Positions 10,501 through 28,639 of a stretch of 38,219 bases of DNA are shown one piece after another. Made by a program: the position numbers and the translations under genes. Source of the DNA: Acidimicrobiales bacterium (GTDB lineage: Bacteria; Actinomycetota; Acidimicrobiia; Acidimicrobiales; SZUA-35); the NCBI GenBank assembly GCA_020628305.1, contig JAHDFH010000015.1, positions 1 to 38,219 on the forward strand. The letters run 5' to 3'. How positions within the stretch are numbered: the stretch's first letter is position 1; every line of letters begins with the position of its first letter. The notes beneath the pieces are model-generated. The model had not been told where the DNA came from. It was given only the letters and a program-made list of their open reading frames with translations, and did not search any database.

Positions 10501-10533
10501 GTGGGACAAATTACCCCGTCCCTAATGCCGCGG
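10501..10533 (-). repeat. 3'-end palindromic element, copy 1
   Basis: Directly after the surface-protein stop codon the minus strand reads CCGCGGCATTAGGGAC, then GGGGTAATTTGTCCC. GGGAC and GTCCC can pair around a ten-base loop. Near-identical sequence follows the next two minus-strand genes. Confidence 0.65.
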
Positions 10534-13500
10534 CTAGCCGAGCAACTTTCTGCGTTGAAGCAGCACACCAGAAACAAGCACCAGCAAACCGAACCCGGCC
10601 AACCATATAGTTGACGCACCCGTAAAAGCAATTGTTTCAACGGTTCCGCCCACAGTTATTACAGCTATATCAGAATCATCCTCATCACCGCCGGTTCCAT
10701 CAACCACATCATCAACAACCACATCATTATCCGACAAGATATCTGATAGCGAATCAACATCTATAATTCTGTTTCCATCCTCATCTCTGAAACCCGCAAC
10801 CTCAGCAAGATTGGTTATCTCACCTGGAGCGTCGGCTGAAATTTCAAACGTGATAGGAACCTCAACCATCATCCCCGCCGGAATCGAAACAATAGGCTCA
10901 ACCAACCCCACAACCCCATCCTCAATCTCAACCCAACCCTCATCAGCCAACACAAGCCCTGCCGGAACATAGTCAACAACTTCAACATCAAACGCATCTG
11001 CAGTACCCTGATTCAAAATCCGAACCGTGTAACTCACCAAATCCCCCGGAGCATAAACAGCCGTCTCAGATTCAATAGCAACCTTCTGCAAAGCCAAATC
11101 ATACGGAGAAGTAAACCCAAAATCCTGAACTACATCATCAGACACATCTAACAACGTTGCATCACTATTAGGCCCAATAAGAGTGAACCTAGAGGCCAAA
11201 TCCAAACCACCATCAGAATCGTAAGAAGCTACGAGCCCAGCAGGCAAAGAATCCACATCAACCCGCACGCTATACGTGCCAGAACCCAAACCAGCAAACA
11301 AATAGTGCCCCGATTCATCAGAAACTGAAGTCACCGGGATGCCAGCCGAAGTCAACACAGGATCACCACCAGCATCCAACAACTCCAAAATCACCCCAAC
11401 CAGAGGACGCTCCCCCTCATCAAAAACTCCATCAGAATCAGCATCCAACCAAACTAAATCTCCTACAGAGCCAGCAACCACACCAACACAAACATCATTA
11501 CTAACGACATCCAAAGTCACCACAGCAGCGTTAGAACCAACATTGGCGCAGAACAAATCACCATCCATAGACAACCCAGAACTCAACGTCAACGTAATCT
11601 CCCGAGGAACCTCACCCGAAACAACAGTCGGCAACAAAGCCCTAAAACCGGTGACCGTCGATAAGTCAGTAGGTGGAGAAGACAGCCAAACAGTCTCCCC
11701 TGTACCCACAACCGAAACATCAGGCACATCTGTTACAGGATCAACCAAACCAAACGAGCAGATCTCATCCAACAACATATTACCCGACCCCAAGCTATCC
11801 CCAGTCGGCCAATTAGAAGGAGCACACGGACGCTGATCCACCAACTCCACTGACGTCGTAGTGTACTCAAACACCTCACCCGCCCCAGAACCAACAACAC
11901 CAACAAACCCAGCACGACCAGACACATCAACTGTTGACGTCTCCGTATTCGCATTAAACCGCAACTCAGAGTTGAACCGCTCAGGAGACGCACCAACAAC
12001 AGAACCATCCACACCATCACCCTCAAAAGGCAACACACCAATCAACTGACCCCGACCCAAATCGTCACGCCCGCCATTCACGTAAGAAAAAGTCAAATCA
12101 AAATCATTGCCAGGTTCAACCACCTCAAACCCAGCGCTAGCAAAAACACCAAACTCGCTTGATTCTGCGAATGAGTTAGATACCCAACGAGAGGTCCAGG
12201 CTGAATCCACTACATCATTTATGGATTGAATATCAGACGTTATTTCGACATAGTTCCAGATTCTTGTCGTACTCCAGGTTGGGTCTTCTGAGTTAGTGGT
12301 GACAGTAACCTCAAATGGCTGAAGGTCGGAGCTATCAACTACATCACTGATTACGAAATCCACACTGTGCGTAGCTTCATCATAAACTTCCAGACACGTG
12401 GGCATAACAACAGCGCAAGTTGAAGACGCAAATTCCATAGCGTTATCGAGCTCATCAGTAATCGTTATAACTGCGCCAGGAGCATAAGTTCCATAAAAGC
12501 GAGGTGTTACTTGGTAACTTGTTTCTTCATTGAAGTCAACTAGGTACGTAGAGTCGTCTGATCTCGTCATCCAGATTGTATAGAAAGCATCAACTAGTCG
12601 GGTTCTATCCGCAGTTCTTGCATTGAAGGAATAAACACCAGTCGGGTCATCGTCGATCAGATAGCTTCCCGTTTCATCAAGAGGTGGAATCCAACCTTGC
12701 CCAGGGGAGGCGGACATGTAATTTTCGGTCCGAGATGCCACGTTTGCCAACAGGTCAGTGACTGATGTGTCGATCACCTCATTCACTCGAACGTTGAAAG
12801 TGAAAACCATACGAAAGTCGTCTAACTGAGAATTCCCGATCTGTTGACCGAGGTCAGCAATGTCTCTGTCCCAAAGCACTCTGACACGAACAACGGATTC
12901 CTCTCCACCCGGAAGAGCGCTGTAATCAGAGACCCAATCTGATGAACCATCGCCATCTAGGTCATCTTCACAAGTGGCGGTCCAAGAATCATCACTAGTA
13001 ACGGAGTAAGGCACGTCAGAAAACTCAACTCTTACCCCACCTTCTTGAGCTGTATAAAAGCCCCACCTGTTGGTCTCAGGCGTTGAACCAGAACCTGTGA
13101 AGGCATAGACCGATGGGTTGTAGCCCGGCAGATCATGATAGTCGATGCGCTGATCGGGAGGATCGCCGTTGTAACGATAGGAGTCGGTTAAAGGCAAAGT
13201 ATCCGGCGTTACCCACCACATAATGGTGTCTTCATAGACACCTGTGTAGGCAGCTTCTTGACTTCCATCATTTCTATATCCGGCAAAGGTGAACAGATCC
13301 GTATCGATCGTTTCGCAAATACCTCGATGAGTCAAGTTGCTCTCAACCGTACTGTCGTAGATGCTTAAAGAAACTGGCATCTCCTGGCCTCGCGTTGCGA
13401 GAGTACTTCCAGATTTAGTAGCTCGACCACTTTGAAGATAGCCACTGAAGGTCTTAACAAATCTGATAGGGCCAGGTGGCGTTTCAGCCAACACAAAGGA

Positions 13501-14745
13501 GTTAGAATCAACTAATGGGTTGAGATTTACAGCTCCACTTGCTGAAAGCAAGTTAGTTGAAAACTCAGTGCCCGTCGGACCCCAGCTTTCCAACTGGGCG
13601 GTGTTAGCGATCTCCAGAGCTTCGCCAGCGGCAGTATCTAAATCAATGTCTGACAATGGAATGAAGAAATCGACTCCCACCTCAAAAAACATCGCTTCAT
13701 CAGAGTTGTCGCTCCAGTGGTCGGTGATCATGCTGGCCTGGGTGTTGTAACCATTGACTTCGATGAAGATGTCAGTTCCAGGACCGCCTGGTTGAGAACA
13801 GCTGATTGATTGCACCAGCTCTGGGTACATGTTGAAGCATCCATCGCCACCAGAGCCAGACTTGAGAACGATGTTGTCCGCTACAAGTCCTTGAACGTTG
13901 TGGGTGGCGGCCCAGGAATCCCTAAACACAAATGACTGTAAACCTGCGCTGCCTTGAAGTCTTTCACTTGGCCGATCACCAATCAACCTCAGCGTCCATG
14001 TAAGCGTAAAGCCAGCTTCGCCGGTTGGCGACTGGGCCGCTTGAACGAGCCGGGGGGTGTAACTTGCCTGCCGAGAATCTGGTAGGGACGCTACGGTCTT
14101 GTCGAGTCTCACGTCGAACCCTGCGGTTATCATAGTTGAAGGACTGCCAAGACCTTGAGTTGTGCCGACACCTCCTAGATTGACGTTGTTGCCTGAGCCT
14201 CCTGTTATAGAGGCCTCGATCTGGTCGCCGTTTGAACCGATCGCTCGTGCGTCAACTAAGTAAGATCGCTTAGAGCCTTCTTCCATGGGTCCGACGTTAC
14301 AAACCAGTGTTTCGTTGTGTCCGTCTCCATCTGTATCGATAATTCCCGAATCTGGAATGGGGTTCTCGCTTGGTTCGTATCGCTGGGTGAGACAGTAGAA
14401 CGGTAGCTCCGCAAAGTATGCATTCTCGTTAAGTTCGATGGTGAAGTTGACGTTGGTGTCGTCAGCGTCGTTCATAGCTATCTCAACTCGATAAGTTACC
14501 GCATCTTGAGATCTAACAATGCCGTTGTTTAACGATGAGTCTGTCCCTGCATCGTTTGTTCCATCCCAAGTGGTCGCGTCCAACGGCTCAGAACCATCAG
14601 ACTGCACAAGAATCACAGCCTCAACAGACGGCTCCTGAGCAGCGGGCAAACCAACAGCAACAACAGCGCCAACGATCACTAATGCCAAAGCTGCCAACAA
14701 CTGCCAGCCAAGTCTAGAAAGACTAAACAAAACAACCCTCCACAC
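10534..14745 (-). CDS. Large cell-wall-anchored surface protein with SdrD_B-like and DUF11 domains
   Basis: This 1403-residue protein begins with a positively charged N-terminus and a hydrophobic segment (about residues 13-36), a signal peptide. The long central part is Thr/Ser/Asp-rich beta-structure. At about 1095-1210 is an SdrD B-like/Cna-B-type repeat (GSVGDLVWLDADSDGVFDEGE, then GHYLFAGLGSGTYSVRVD) with an Asp-rich calcium-type loop. At about 1213-1330 is a DUF11 domain (DLALQKV, YAPGDLVSYTVRILNQGT). The C-terminus has the sorting signal IAFTG, a hydrophobic stretch and RRK, resembling the LAxTG signals used by class E sortases. No sortase gene is in the window. Adhesion or surface-layer function is likely but unproven. 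Base composition changes along the gene: the first 50 codons and the last 530 or so are very G/T-rich on the coding strand, the middle is not. Confidence 0.9.
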   Translation of the reverse strand: MWRVVLFSLSRLGWQLLAALALVIVGAVVAVGLPAAQEPSVEAVILVQSDGSEPLDATTWDGTNDAGTDSSLNNGIVRSQDAVTYRVEIAMNDADDTNVNFTIELNENAYFAELPFYCLTQRYEPSENPIPDSGIIDTDGDGHNETLVCNVGPMEEGSKRSYLVDARAIGSNGDQIEASITGGSGNNVNLGGVGTTQGLGSPSTMITAGFDVRLDKTVASLPDSRQASYTPRLVQAAQSPTGEAGFTLTWTLRLIGDRPSERLQGSAGLQSFVFRDSWAATHNVQGLVADNIVLKSGSGGDGCFNMYPELVQSISCSQPGGPGTDIFIEVNGYNTQASMITDHWSDNSDEAMFFEVGVDFFIPLSDIDLDTAAGEALEIANTAQLESWGPTGTEFSTNLLSASGAVNLNPLVDSNSFVLAETPPGPIRFVKTFSGYLQSGRATKSGSTLATRGQEMPVSLSIYDSTVESNLTHRGICETIDTDLFTFAGYRNDGSQEAAYTGVYEDTIMWWVTPDTLPLTDSYRYNGDPPDQRIDYHDLPGYNPSVYAFTGSGSTPETNRWGFYTAQEGGVRVEFSDVPYSVTSDDSWTATCEDDLDGDGSSDWVSDYSALPGGEESVVRVRVLWDRDIADLGQQIGNSQLDDFRMVFTFNVRVNEVIDTSVTDLLANVASRTENYMSASPGQGWIPPLDETGSYLIDDDPTGVYSFNARTADRTRLVDAFYTIWMTRSDDSTYLVDFNEETSYQVTPRFYGTYAPGAVITITDELDNAMEFASSTCAVVMPTCLEVYDEATHSVDFVISDVVDSSDLQPFEVTVTTNSEDPTWSTTRIWNYVEITSDIQSINDVVDSAWTSRWVSNSFAESSEFGVFASAGFEVVEPGNDFDLTFSYVNGGRDDLGRGQLIGVLPFEGDGVDGSVVGASPERFNSELRFNANTETSTVDVSGRAGFVGVVGSGAGEVFEYTTTSVELVDQRPCAPSNWPTGDSLGSGNMLLDEICSFGLVDPVTDVPDVSVVGTGETVWLSSPPTDLSTVTGFRALLPTVVSGEVPREITLTLSSGLSMDGDLFCANVGSNAAVVTLDVVSNDVCVGVVAGSVGDLVWLDADSDGVFDEGERPLVGVILELLDAGGDPVLTSAGIPVTSVSDESGHYLFAGLGSGTYSVRVDVDSLPAGLVASYDSDGGLDLASRFTLIGPNSDATLLDVSDDVVQDFGFTSPYDLALQKVAIESETAVYAPGDLVSYTVRILNQGTADAFDVEVVDYVPAGLVLADEGWVEIEDGVVGLVEPIVSIPAGMMVEVPITFEISADAPGEITNLAEVAGFRDEDGNRIIDVDSLSDILSDNDVVVDDVVDGTGGDEDDSDIAVITVGGTVETIAFTGASTIWLAGFGLLVLVSGVLLQRRKLLG

Positions 14746-14803: not shown

Positions 14804-14835
14804 GCGCGGCAAATTACCCCGTCCCGAATGTCCCA
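14804..14835 (-). repeat. 3'-end palindromic element, copy 2
   Basis: Two bases after the stop codon of the secreted-protein gene the minus strand reads TGGGACATTCGGGAC, then GGGGTAATTTGCCGCGC. The core GGGACGGGGTAATTTG is identical to copy 1. The flanking arms are less complementary, so the hairpin is weaker. Confidence 0.6.
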
Positions 14836-14837
14836 GA

Positions 14838-16364
14838 TTAGAGGGCGTCTTCGTAAGGCTGTGCGGGAGTTTGGCAACGAGGGTCGCCAGCATTTGGAGT
14901 TGATCGAAAGGCTGTTCCTTGTGGGACTGCGCACTTGATCTGATAACCAGAAGGCTTGTTCCAATCTGGAGGCATAACTTCTAGCTGTGACCAGTCAATT
15001 GCATATAGTATGTCCCACTCCTGCGCATCTTTGTAGGCAGTCTCAGCCCACAAATTTCCGGAAGCCAAACCGTTAAATGTTGCAGCCAAGCCACTTTCAG
15101 CCTGGAAACAGAAACAACCAGCTTCGTCGTGAACAACGATCCCATAATCTCTAGCAGCTTTAGCAACCATCCGAGCATACGGATGGGCAATAGCCTCTAC
15201 GTTAAAATCTGCAGGCAAACGAAGATACTGACCTTCGTAGAGACAGTTCTGCGCTCCACCAACCGCATTCTCGACCGTTGTCCCACGCTCACCCTTACTA
15301 GGGTTATTGCAGTAGCCGTCGTTTCGGTTAGCCGGATACGACGCTCCCCCAGCGTTGACCATTTCAGTTGATATACCGATTGCGTGTCGAATCTCGCCTC
15401 TTCTAACATCCTCGAGCGTGATGGTTAGGCCTGGCGCTGTCAACCCTGCGGCGTCAGCCCCAGTAGGGAACGCGAACGCTCCTTTACCCTGTGACCCAAA
15501 GTTTTTGATGATGCCGCCCCAACAAACTTCTAAACCGGAGTTGCCAGTGAGGTTAGAAGTCTGAGCACGCCAAAACTCAATCAGGATGTCTTTCCGATAA
15601 TCATAAATCACTAGATGATAGTCACCATCGCCAGGCTGCATCTTGAAGTCTGACGGCAAAGGAATTCCTTGCTTACCGATATCAGAATACGCACCATTTA
15701 TATAGGGCTCAAAGTGTTCGTCCTTCCAGTTCCACCAGGTACTGGCACCGCATCTTTCAGGTGAGAACTCGACCGTCTGAAAACTCTCACGTTCCGAATC
15801 TACAAGCAACATGTAAGGTGCATTGAAATCGTCTTCAAAGCCGCTGCCATAGCTATAGAGACGCTGGCCTCTTATTATCTCGTTGATGTGATTGGCAATT
15901 GTTGCGGAGTTCGAAAGTGTTGGAGTATCAGCAGGGAGCTTGCGGTTGAAAATCAGCGTTGTTGAGTTCATCCATGGAACTGCATAATCAGGCGCACCGT
16001 AAGTGGTGAAGAAAGTACCATTTGCATTTTGGTAGCCACCGTCTGACGGGGTGAAATCTTTCGGCGGAACGACCGTTGTTTGGTCAGTGGTTTGATCGAC
16101 TGAGTCTACAGAGGACGATGTTGGGAGTTCAGCAATTGTTGTGGCAGTTAGATCAACACTTTGATCCGAAGTTTGAGTGGTTGGTTCGTCAACAAAGATA
16201 GAGACCGTTGTATTGAAGGCATCGCCTGGCTGCTCGACTGGAACCTCAGCCGTTGAAATACCCGAGTTATTTCTGATCAGAGCAACTGCCAAGGCCGCCA
16301 TACCGCACATCGCTAGACACGCCACGATCATCGAAGATGTAGAAAGTTTGATGCCGCCGTTCAT
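14838..16364 (-). CDS. Secreted or membrane-tethered protein of unknown function
   Basis: The ATG at 16364 is chosen because GGAGG lies seven bases upstream; the longer frame to 16418 lacks this. The 508-residue protein has an N-terminal hydrophobic segment (about residues 10-32, signal or anchor), a Thr/Ser/Val-rich linker (about 40-100) and a large domain. That domain contains SYGSGFEDDFNAPYMLL, ERCGASTWWNWKDEHFEPYI, a GEIRHAIGIST segment and YARMVAKAARDYGIVVHDEAGCFCFQAE. The last two blocks resemble extracellular actinobacterial proteins of unassigned function in which a similar HA(I/L)xI and MxxAARxYGIVVxD pair occurs. Several Cys residues in the outer domain suggest disulfides. It is next to, and oriented with, the wall-anchored protein gene, so both may act at the cell surface. 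Confidence 0.75.
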   Translation of the reverse strand: MNGGIKLSTSSMIVACLAMCGMAALAVALIRNNSGISTAEVPVEQPGDAFNTTVSIFVDEPTTQTSDQSVDLTATTIAELPTSSSVDSVDQTTDQTTVVPPKDFTPSDGGYQNANGTFFTTYGAPDYAVPWMNSTTLIFNRKLPADTPTLSNSATIANHINEIIRGQRLYSYGSGFEDDFNAPYMLLVDSERESFQTVEFSPERCGASTWWNWKDEHFEPYINGAYSDIGKQGIPLPSDFKMQPGDGDYHLVIYDYRKDILIEFWRAQTSNLTGNSGLEVCWGGIIKNFGSQGKGAFAFPTGADAAGLTAPGLTITLEDVRRGEIRHAIGISTEMVNAGGASYPANRNDGYCNNPSKGERGTTVENAVGGAQNCLYEGQYLRLPADFNVEAIAHPYARMVAKAARDYGIVVHDEAGCFCFQAESGLAATFNGLASGNLWAETAYKDAQEWDILYAIDWSQLEVMPPDWNKPSGYQIKCAVPQGTAFRSTPNAGDPRCQTPAQPYEDAL

Positions 16365-16596
16365 GCGTCCGCCTCCACTTACATTTGTATCAAAAATGCG
16401 TGAGCCAGGACAGAGCAACTATGGAACTTCAATCAGATCAGTGTGGGGCTTTAGACCTATTGCGTCTAGTGAATGCACGCATCAACAGCCAAGCCGATCC
16501 AGCAGCCAACTATCGGAAACTTCCCCCAAACGCAATCGAGTTCAACCTAAATCCCAAGGTTGGCCAAACAAACCGCAATCAGAAGCACCAAACACC

Positions 16597-25331: not shown

Positions 25332-25516
25332 GGGGCACCACCAAACAATGCTAAGAAAACGGACAAGGCAGCACTAATTACGGAATACGGATTTCAAACC
25401 AGTTGAGACACGAAGACAGCAATAAGCACGGCTTGTCAAGCATATTCATGAAAATTTCGTAATCCAACTGTTTTATTGGATTAATTACCCAGACGGTGCC
25501 GTACCGAGTGGGAGTT

Positions 25517-25596: not shown

Positions 25597-26346
25597 GTGG
25601 AGAAGAGAATTTTGGGAAGCACTAAATCACCAATAACACCCAACTACACAGTGATGATTGATCTGGGCTGGCTCTACTTGAAGGAACAACTAATTCCGGG
25701 TTTGGTAGCAACTCAAGACGGTAACCCATTCGAACCTTTCGAACAGTTGGTTAGTTCAATGCTCAGCGAACGCCCCAGCGAAGCGAGTGTCAATTCCTCT
25801 ACCCCACACTCAGCAGCAATTGCTGCTGAGAAACTCATCTCTCGACAGTTACGCAACCTTGGTGACAGAGCTGGGAAAGAGACAACAGCAATCAGGTTTG
25901 GCAATCACCACAAAATGCTTCGTCCACTGCCTGAGAACATGACGAGCTCTTTTTTCGAAAAAATCTGGATCGATCTAGTGCTCCCGTTCATAGGAGCCAG
26001 AGAACTAGAGACGGGTGCGAGGGTTGCAACCTTGGCCCCTGCTGGGTTATCTCTTGCGATCGAATCAAATTCCTTACCTGCTGAGTTACTCGACCCTTTC
26101 GATTTTGTTAGCGACAAATGGAACCCTACAGAGCCGAGCCAGATGCTTTTCGAGCTATGGCATGCTTTCAGGGAAAGACTGGAGACCGTGAAATCGAATG
26201 GGTTCCTCGACGCCTGCCTACTTGATATCGACCAGATCGGAGAAGAGTTGAATACTCCACCACAAGGAGCAGATGTGATCAGCCAAAGCCCAACTGTCAA
26301 GACGCTACGACAGCAGGAAGGTAGAGGATTGTTTCCCCATGGATAG
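25597..26346 (+). CDS. Hypothetical protein A of a three-gene operon
   Basis: The start is GTG with GGAG about ten bases upstream; a Met at residue 21 is an alternative. The 249-residue product is soluble and largely helical, with segments such as MIDLGWLYLKEQLIPGLV, SAAIAAEKLISRQLRNLGDRAG and PSQMLFELWHAFRERLETV. It has no signal peptide, membrane helix or motif I recognise. It is divergent from rpoB and is followed, on the same strand, by two more unrecognised genes after 55 and 14 bases, so it likely begins a small operon. The composition is ordinary for the window, so I believe it is coding. No function can be proposed from sequence alone. Confidence 0.65.
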   Translation: MEKRILGSTKSPITPNYTVMIDLGWLYLKEQLIPGLVATQDGNPFEPFEQLVSSMLSERPSEASVNSSTPHSAAIAAEKLISRQLRNLGDRAGKETTAIRFGNHHKMLRPLPENMTSSFFEKIWIDLVLPFIGARELETGARVATLAPAGLSLAIESNSLPAELLDPFDFVSDKWNPTEPSQMLFELWHAFRERLETVKSNGFLDACLLDIDQIGEELNTPPQGADVISQSPTVKTLRQQEGRGLFPHG

Positions 26347-26401
26347 TGTTCCAGCAAGGCTTGTGAGAAGATGTTGAATGAGAAGAAAGTGAAAATTCAC
26401 A

Positions 26402-27037
26402 GTGAAAGGACCTGACCTTGTCGAGGAATTTGTCACACGATTGGACGCTTCGCTGCAACAACTAGCCAGAATCATCACTAGACGAATCGGGCTGCTCCAT
26501 GGATTAGAGTTCTTACCTGAACGAACTGTTCACCCACCATTTCTCATCGGTGATCGCTTCGACGATGACCACGAACTAGAAGACCTGTTACTAGAAGGAC
26601 ATCGAGCAATGAAGCTACAGGTTGAAGAGATGGTACAAAATGGTGAGATCAACGGACCCCCAGACGATTCTTTCCTCAAGATTGATGAAATCTTTGCCCG
26701 GACCGTTCCTACTAAACAAGACGACGATGCCATCAAGACTGGCATCATGTTCATCGCTAAAGTGGTCTTGGAATCTAAGCGAGATGTGCTCCATCCTCCA
26801 CTACCGATCGATATAGTCAAATATCTCACGGTTTTGAAATCACTCGCACAAGGAAACGACGAGGTGTATCAGAAGTGCAACTTATCAGAGCTTCTCGGTG
26901 CTTTGACTCGACTAAGCAACGAGCTGTTTCCTAAAGCATCCTTCACTCCTCCTGGTCGCTGTGGAGTGGTTCCGCCACACACAGTGGGCTACCCACACTT
27001 CACCCCGGTAACATCAAGAAGGATTATCCTTCGCTAG
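26402..27037 (+). CDS. Hypothetical protein B of a three-gene operon
   Basis: The frame starts with GTG and encodes 211 residues. The Shine-Dalgarno is weak. The first 40 residues are amphipathic helix (DLVEEFVTRLDASLQQLARIITRRIGLLHGLEFLP). An acidic segment follows (DRFDDDHELEDLLLEGH), then further helices (DDAIKTGIMFIAKVVLESKRD and IVKYLTVLKSLAQGN). The C-terminus is Pro/Gly/His-rich. No family is recognised. The position between genes A and C on the same strand, with short gaps, argues for co-expression. Confidence 0.6.
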   Translation: MKGPDLVEEFVTRLDASLQQLARIITRRIGLLHGLEFLPERTVHPPFLIGDRFDDDHELEDLLLEGHRAMKLQVEEMVQNGEINGPPDDSFLKIDEIFARTVPTKQDDDAIKTGIMFIAKVVLESKRDVLHPPLPIDIVKYLTVLKSLAQGNDEVYQKCNLSELLGALTRLSNELFPKASFTPPGRCGVVPPHTVGYPHFTPVTSRRIILR

Positions 27038-27051
27038 AGAGCAGCTTCAAT

Positions 27052-27618
27052 ATGCAAAAACCGTTCGATGGGCACAACGCAACAGACTTGTTCAGCCGAT
27101 CAACCCCGACTCCGCAACTTGCACAACTTATTGAAGCCCTTTTTTGCCAACTTACGGATGAAGTTAACGCTCTCCAGGGTGAACTCGGGTTTGAAGCGCA
27201 AATCAACCTACCTGATGGTGGACTTGCAAACGACGTACCAAAGCTCACAGATCTGGTTGCCGGTGGACTACCCATTCATCAAGCTGCACATCGAGTGTTC
27301 ACAGCCATCGCCTCCCAAACTAGGGCTAGCTTTACGATACAAGGCTTTGGAGATACGGCATTTGCAGAAATCCCAGAATCGATTGAAAACTTGCTTGACG
27401 CCTCCTCACCTGATCGTTTCACTGGCGGCAGCATTTATGATTATGCGGTTGGGTGCATAGACAAACTTTCACTAGCCTTGGTTGAACACGGAGTTAGTCT
27501 TGACGAACAGCTAGAGAGCCTAGCCAAGACCATTCGACCAGCTAAGGACGATAGGGACAGTCCTATCGGATTCAGTCATGAGGACGATAGGGACGGTCCT
27601 ATCCGATTCACTCGATAG
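27052..27618 (+). CDS. Hypothetical protein C, C-terminus built from REP repeats
   Basis: The ATG frame encodes 188 residues and lies 14 bases after gene B. It is mostly helical (PQLAQLIEALFCQLTDEVNALQGELG, YDYAVGCIDKLSLALVEHGVSLDEQLESLAKTIRP), with no recognised family. From residue 165 onward the reading frame runs through two REP copies, giving the duplicated peptide DDRDSPIGF/DDRDGPIRF before the stop at 27616-27618. The original C-terminus was therefore probably truncated or replaced when the repeat array formed. The globular part ends at about TIRPAK. Confidence 0.6.
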   Translation: MQKPFDGHNATDLFSRSTPTPQLAQLIEALFCQLTDEVNALQGELGFEAQINLPDGGLANDVPKLTDLVAGGLPIHQAAHRVFTAIASQTRASFTIQGFGDTAFAEIPESIENLLDASSPDRFTGGSIYDYAVGCIDKLSLALVEHGVSLDEQLESLAKTIRPAKDDRDSPIGFSHEDDRDGPIRFTR

Positions 27619-27652
27619 CATATGAGGACGATAGGGACAGTCCTATCGGATT
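27545..27652 (+). repeat. Left REP array of the RAYT locus (three direct copies)
   Basis: Three 28-base copies lie at 27545-27572, 27581-27608 and 27625-27652. Each begins AGGACGATAGGGAC and ends GTCCTATC(G/C)GATT. CGATAGG and CCTATCG form a seven-base stem around GACAGT in copies 1 and 3. Copy 2 differs at two positions (GACGG, TATCC). Repeat periods are 36 and 44 bases. The array overlaps the 3' end of gene C. Confidence 0.85.
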
Positions 27653-27742
27653 GACTCGTCACCTTAAGCCAGTAAATAGACCAAAGTCTAATCCTCAGCC
27701 TTAGTTTGTGATCTTCAAACCACTCAAAGCGCTTAACATGCT

Positions 27743-28537
27743 ATGAGAAATAAGCGAGAAACGTTCGACGGAGCTATTCACCACGTTATGAATAGAGGCA
27801 GAAACAAAGAACACATCTTCGAAGGACCACCCGAAAAGAAGAAATTCGAACGACTACTAGAGGAGGCAACGAGTAAGTTCGAAACTGAGGTCCACTGCTA
27901 TTGCATTATGTCAAACCACTATCATCTACTTCTCCGCAACTGTGGCTCTGAGATGTCAAAGTTTATGCACTGGATTAGTGGAAAATACGCCACGTGGTAT
28001 AACAAGTCCCACGGCTCTGATGGCACGATTTATAAAGACAGGTACAAGTCGAAACTCGTTGACTCCGATGAATACTTGTACGCATTGGCCGGCTACATTC
28101 ACCGCAACCCCCTGACTTTCGTGAACGAAACCGAGCTAGCGGACTACCCATACTCAAGCCTTCCCTGCTACCTCAACACCAAAAACAAACCATGGCTATC
28201 GAAAGACTTAGTAAACTCCGTCGTTGACAGCCACGGGCTGCTGTTAGGTTCGTCTACCCAGAACCAACTTTATGAGCACGATGAATCCCAACTCCTGATT
28301 GATCTAGCAGACTTCCTTTCGCACACAAGACAGCTAGAACTTCCACACCTGAAAACCGTAGCCCAACTCTGTTTCCTAACAGACCCAAACCACAAACAGT
28401 TCGACCATCTCAGCACAGCTGCTAAAGCAACCAAGCGACGAAGAGTGAAATCAATTCTCGAAAGTACAATCGGCGTACCGCACACTGAAGTACTTCTCAA
28501 ATTAACAAAACAATGGCTATCAAATACGAAAACATAA
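27743..28537 (+). CDS. REP-associated tyrosine transposase (RAYT, Y1_Tnp/IS200-like HUH)
   Basis: This 264-residue enzyme has the RAYT layout. It starts near AIHHVMNRGRNKEHIF, has the metal-binding HUH motif as HYHLLLR at about residues 59-65, and contains MSKFMHWISGKYATWYN, a GTIYKDRYKS segment and the tyrosine helix SDEYLYALAGYIHRNPL. RAYTs are single-strand-specific Y1 nucleases, related to IS200/IS605 transposases, that bind and cleave REP hairpins and are thought to spread them. The gene is flanked by three REPs upstream and two inverted REPs downstream, the usual RAYT arrangement. The C-terminal 80 residues (LPHLKTVAQLCFLTDPNHKQF and onward) look like the accessory domain found in one RAYT group. 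The frame is intact, so it may be active. Confidence 0.92.
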   Translation: MRNKRETFDGAIHHVMNRGRNKEHIFEGPPEKKKFERLLEEATSKFETEVHCYCIMSNHYHLLLRNCGSEMSKFMHWISGKYATWYNKSHGSDGTIYKDRYKSKLVDSDEYLYALAGYIHRNPLTFVNETELADYPYSSLPCYLNTKNKPWLSKDLVNSVVDSHGLLLGSSTQNQLYEHDESQLLIDLADFLSHTRQLELPHLKTVAQLCFLTDPNHKQFDHLSTAAKATKRRRVKSILESTIGVPHTEVLLKLTKQWLSNTKT

Positions 28538-28546
28538 AAGCCAAAC

Positions 28547-28614
28547 TCGGATAGGACCGTCCCTAGAGGACTAGAGAACAAAGGTAAAAGCCGGATAGGA
28601 CCGTCCCTAGAGGA
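28547..28614 (-). repeat. Right REP pair of the RAYT locus (inverted relative to the left array)
   Basis: Two copies at 28547-28570 and 28592-28614 read, on the minus strand, TCCTCTAGGGACGG followed by TCCTATCCGA. The 19-base core TAGGGACGGTCCTATCCGA is identical to left copy 2. The pair lies between the convergent RAYT and MFS genes and could also terminate both transcripts. Confidence 0.82.
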
Positions 28615-28639
28615 TTGCTGAATCGATTAGTACAATTCC

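Follow-up and report, generated by a model that had tools for sequence, protein, structure and literature searches.

Which kind of mobile or domesticated system is represented by a transposase gene that lies between oppositely oriented arrays of a short palindromic repeat in the genome of an Acidimicrobiales bacterium? The locus is part of the window, the whole stretch of 38,219 nucleotides analysed here. A preliminary description had taken it for a complete RAYT locus flanked by REP arrays. The gene and the repeats, the latter named T1 below, are placed as follows.

27743..28537, plus strand: HUH/Y1 tyrosine transposase gene, 264 aa (Y1_Tnp E 4.6e-14, core pLDDT >90, structure match 4er8)
about 27542..27576, plus strand: T1 upstream copy 1 (covariance model 39.3 bits), which doubles as coding sequence near the 3' end of the ORF at 27052-27618
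about 27578..27612, plus strand: T1 upstream copy 2 (45.8 bits)
about 27622..27656, plus strand: T1 upstream copy 3 (39.1 bits)
about 28541..28575, minus strand: T1 downstream inverted copy 1 (41.1 bits)
about 28585..28619, minus strand: T1 downstream inverted copy 2 (43.3 bits)

The transposase ORF is intact. The Pfam match covers residues 12-122, the Y1_Tnp domain from end to end, and the catalytic motifs are kept, with NHYH as the HUH motif and the tyrosine in YIHRNP. Alignment with 39 homologs showed that N58, H59, H61 and Y118 are invariant, and that the NH.H, Y118, NP and SS motifs are invariant or nearly so. The core is followed by YPYSS, of which S139 is invariant in the same homologs. 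AlphaFold predicts the HUH core with high confidence and a helical C-terminal tail with low confidence. In a fold search the best match among solved structures is PDB 4er8, the complex of TnpA_REP with a REP hairpin; a phmmer search of the protein against the PDB gave no match at 0.01. No Pfam match to a C-terminal HTH was found in the window protein, whereas several homologs do carry a Bac_DnaA_C tail.

The layout of the repeats, three direct copies of 35 nt upstream of the ORF and two in the opposite orientation downstream, agrees with the preliminary description, as do the intact HUH gene and the 19-base core common to both sides: an exact 19-nt inverted match, TAGGGACGGTCCTATCCGA, links 27588-27606 to 28547-28565. 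The copies can also be delimited as 27542-27578, 27578-27614 and 27622-27658 upstream and 28536-28570 and 28580-28614 downstream. The differing outer arms of the two sides had been read as two REP subtypes. This reading is ruled out, as all five copies fall into one alignment and match one model; the differences are variation within T1, and the true families (T1, T2 and T3, described below) correspond to one per transposase gene.

The surroundings of the locus show some further features. Two T1 copies with a 36-bp spacing are read in frame at the end of the ORF at 27052-27618 (plus strand), where they make up the last ~23 codons and encode a peptide, DDRD[SG]PI[GR]F, that is repeated. Possible fragments of one disrupted gene are seen in the ORFs at 25597-27618, which have no Pfam match. 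A 71-bp stretch upstream of rpoB (25415-25485) is 92% identical to its counterpart in the same-genus genome G018, with the rest of the region unconserved, and is perhaps an rpoB leader or promoter. It has no match in Rfam, and an Rfam search of the window detected only an incomplete tRNA where the window ends. An empty-site comparison gave no result, as the region of the locus is too poorly conserved to be aligned with the same-genus genomes.

Searches of the 2.36-Mb genome showed that T1 is dispersed. When at most two mismatches are allowed, the pattern ATAGGGACNGTCCTAT matches 31 sites compared with 3 for the reversed pattern, and a covariance model made from 27 copies gave 29 strong matches; these numbers are lower bounds because the repeats break the assembly. 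Contigs C65 (L011) and C11 (L013) start with the same T1 element and the repeat following it. The possibility that the repeats are purely local is thus ruled out, and the genome-wide copies anticipated by the preliminary description exist. Against 38 other genomes of the family the T1 model gave no convincing match (best E 0.055), and neither the transposase gene nor T1 elements were found in two genomes of the same genus, one of which is 55% complete. A second dispersed palindromic repeat was also observed, of the form GTCATCC-NNAGG-hairpin-GGGATCTCTA, whose hairpin arms seem to co-vary. Copies lie immediately downstream of T1 at L007, L048, L032, L015, L011, L013 and L050, and others lie elsewhere; several adjoin T1 elements.

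The genome contains three Y1 genes: the window gene and one each on contigs C13 and C98. The window protein shares 37 and 51% identity with the other two. The C13 gene is truncated to 124 aa with a broken HUH motif (HFQ) and is flanked by copies of GGAC-TRGGGACGGTACTA-CCCGTCC, termed T2. The C98 gene encodes about 266 aa with intact motifs and is flanked by GGGACA-TRGGGACGGGGGTA-TGTCCC, termed T3. All three loci share one geometry, with the element on the plus strand upstream and on the minus strand downstream. The three elements are variants of a single type, one for each Y1 gene. T2 and T3 are dispersed as well. The T2 pattern with two mismatches has 63 sites (T1 included) compared with 15 in the control, and the T3 pattern has 21 compared with 0. 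About 82 distinct elements of the three families were counted on the fetched stretches of the genome, a count used as a total only, since the T1 and T2 labels of single copies are loose. Members of the three families sometimes adjoin one another, for example on C85 and C78. The relationships of the genes and of the elements agree, ((T1,T2),T3), an agreement that has a chance of one in three with three paralogs.

These counts bear on whether the locus is an ordinary insertion sequence of the IS200/IS605 type that has deposited its ends at other sites in abortive moves. The enzyme belongs to the same superfamily, and inverted TIR pairs ~210 bp apart, resembling MITEs, occur in the Aminicenantes genome G042 (locus L178; C6, C46 and C65). 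However, only three diverged gene copies are present, and no near-identical copy of the window transposase was found in the genome. The window protein scores 18.1 bits with the IS200 model, below the cut-off of 55, and no neighbour of tnpB size so annotated was seen beside the gene. This explanation is extremely improbable.

A canonical RAYT-REP system (REPtron) of the gammaproteobacterial style, in which GTAG-tagged REPs are spread by a domesticated RAYT, agrees better with the data. Inverted repeats with cognates scattered over the genome flank the gene, the majority of dispersed T1 copies start with GTAG or GTGG, and TnpA_REP is the best structural match. However, the copies beside the window gene read ATAG or CTAG, with the TAG inside the stem and not in an unpaired foot. 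The protein reaches only 47.9 bits with the NCBI RAYT model NF047646, below the cut-off of 80, and its homologs have TIRs and Bac_DnaA_C tails. A canonical RAYT-REP system is therefore unlikely. Of the preliminary reading, the HUH gene and the inverted, dispersed repeats stand, but the locus is closer to a TIRYT/TIRtron than to a GTAG-tagged RAYT-REP. An actinobacterial host is consistent with the relatives, which are Acidimicrobiales. Y1 genes of this kind are not uncommon in the lineage, being present in 10 of 39 family genomes.

By its RAYT model score, its motifs and the inverted repeats around its homologs, the window protein fits the TIRYTs (subclass 2.1) better than the classical RAYTs. 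Subclass 2.1 is characterized by NH[YF]H, Y[IV]HLNP, SS and HTH-like tails such as Bac_DnaA_C, HTH_23 and HTH_28 (Quentin et al. 2018, PMC6006769). The same paper considers the TIRYTs described by Di Nocera et al. 2013 (PMC3733652) its probable equivalent and reports no REP-like repeats near subclass 2.1 genes. YIHRNP of the window protein is one residue off the subclass motif. Among the homologous loci with enough flank, 48 of 84 have a significant terminal inverted repeat (TIR), and 32 of these 48 contain a GGGG[AT]C[AG]-like motif. The TIR motif published for TIRYTs is GGGGWSAS; the motif here is GGGACGG or GGGACAG, and many relatives have GGGGTCA or GGGGACA. Dispersed TIR copies are also present in G003, a genome of the same family (14 exact copies), and in G042, in which the inverted pairs mentioned above look like MITEs of a TIRYT.

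A tree of 98 proteins, rooted at the midpoint and containing no reference sequences of other Quentin subclasses, placed the three genes of this genome in one clade (support 100/93). The sister group consists of eight Aminicenantes/Chrysiogenota proteins (98/94), a placement weakened by the long branches of the three paralogs. Every one of the 11 loci of these two groups has GGGACGG in the TIR orientation in at least one flank. Outside this 11-member clade the motif has the TIR orientation at two loci, and at three others its orientation is wrong. Taken together, the locus is probably a TIRtron, that is, a low-copy TIRYT (subclass 2.1) Y1/HUH transposase gene between inverted copies of its substrate element. 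The locus with its dispersed element family is real and looks functional, and mobility would be expected by analogy with characterized relatives.

Analysis of the elements showed that T1 is foldable with a stem of 5-7 bp, T2 has two alternative stems and T3 has a stem of 6 bp; in each case the best stem has ~92% of its cells paired. The RNA fold z-score of T1 is weak (-0.5) and that of T2 modest (-1.5). Covariation analysis of the three stems revealed no compensatory change beyond that in shuffles; the stems are conserved as sequence. Thus, recognition of a hairpin is proposed from the analogy to TnpA_REP and IS608 (PMC8266576), from which we also infer cleavage, strand transfer and mobility. 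The conservation of GGGACGG suggests a role for this motif in recognition.

The positions of the elements relative to genes were analysed on the fetched stretches with a home-made codon-usage gene caller, whose start positions may be wrong and which may overlook short genes. Of the 72 elements outside the Y1 loci, 61 are intergenic, so that the copies mostly lie at intergenic sites, as the preliminary description had supposed. Of these 61 elements, 27 lie in the sense orientation no more than 15 nt after a stop codon, compared with 3 in the antisense orientation (p 8e-6, an optimistic value because element arrays were counted uncollapsed). Two T3-family elements of the window, well away from the transposase locus, lie in such positions.

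10503..10524, minus strand: T3-family element, ~9 nt beyond the stop codon of the gene at 10534-14745 (minus strand), core AGGGACGG confirmed
14806..14827, minus strand: decayed T3-family element, ~10 nt beyond the stop codon of the gene at 14838-16418 (minus strand)

Location of REPs near gene 3' ends, at times providing the stop codon, is already known; no statement on their polarity was found in the literature describing that placement.

The sense-strand bias, together with the TTTT that ends many T1 copies, would be expected if the dispersed elements were mainly host terminators or 3'-end mRNA hairpins and the transposase gene were flanked by them by chance. However, T2 and T3 have no T-tract, so intrinsic termination does not account for all of the placement after stop codons. 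Moreover, each family forms inverted repeats around its own transposase gene, the same-genus genomes lack T1, and the motif tracks the transposase clade into other phyla. This explanation is accordingly very unlikely, less probable than the RAYT-REP system.

In the TIRtron, the substrate of the enzyme would most likely be the element in folded single-stranded form, recognised by its GGGACGG tag together with the palindrome next to it. The tyrosine would nick beside the element, and the end would be transferred to another single-stranded site. The bare elements, rather than the gene, would have spread in this way. Each of the three ancient paralogs carries its own element variant, and new copies would have been retained mainly just downstream of stop codons. 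A more specific proposal, put forward tentatively and itself rather doubtful, is that a TIRYT radiated within one actinobacterial genome into three co-diverged enzyme-element pairs whose elements enter at gene 3' ends with a fixed polarity, such that the strand and a signal close to stop codons would guide the enzyme in its choice of a single-stranded target.

The type of system is known but little studied, and the locus adds another member, in Actinomycetota. TIRYTs are among the largest groups of Y1 enzymes, yet only two papers in the literature library searched mention them by name. Here the match between enzyme and element can be read from the sequence, as three paralogs, three families and one motif that tracks a clade across phyla. 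This makes it a testable question whether TIRYTs spread palindromes in a RAYT-like manner, and the sense-strand placement after stop codons poses a concrete question of target choice.

Comparison with known systems places the locus closest to the TIRYTs/TIRtrons (PMC3733652, PMC6006769). The shared features are the Y1 HUH enzyme with the NHYH, YIHxNP and SS motifs, the terminal inverted repeats, the low copy number and the TIR copies dispersed both singly and in clusters; a self-complementary TIR family has been described in the TIRYT literature for ORF 1152 of S. maltophilia. The locus differs in having GGGACGG instead of GGGGWSAS, several tandem element copies per side, a protein with no detectable C-terminal HTH, and a single genome, of an Actinomycetota host, that contains three paralogs and as many dispersed families. 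The RAYT-REP systems (Nunvar et al. 2010, PMC2817692; E. coli TnpA_REP, PDB 4er8) share the inverted REP-gene-REP layout, the dispersed cognate palindromes with one family per enzyme and the position near gene 3' ends. In contrast to them, no unpaired GT[AG]G foot is present beside the window gene, the protein falls below the RAYT model cut-off, and the ~20-30 copies per family lie towards the lower limit of the numbers reported for RAYTs. With the IS200/IS605 elements (IS608, ISDra2) the locus would be expected to share the Y1 HUH single-strand chemistry, given the common fold and catalytic residues. However, near-identical copies of the whole element are absent here, and the flanks are inverted repeats, whereas those elements have strand-specific subterminal hairpins.
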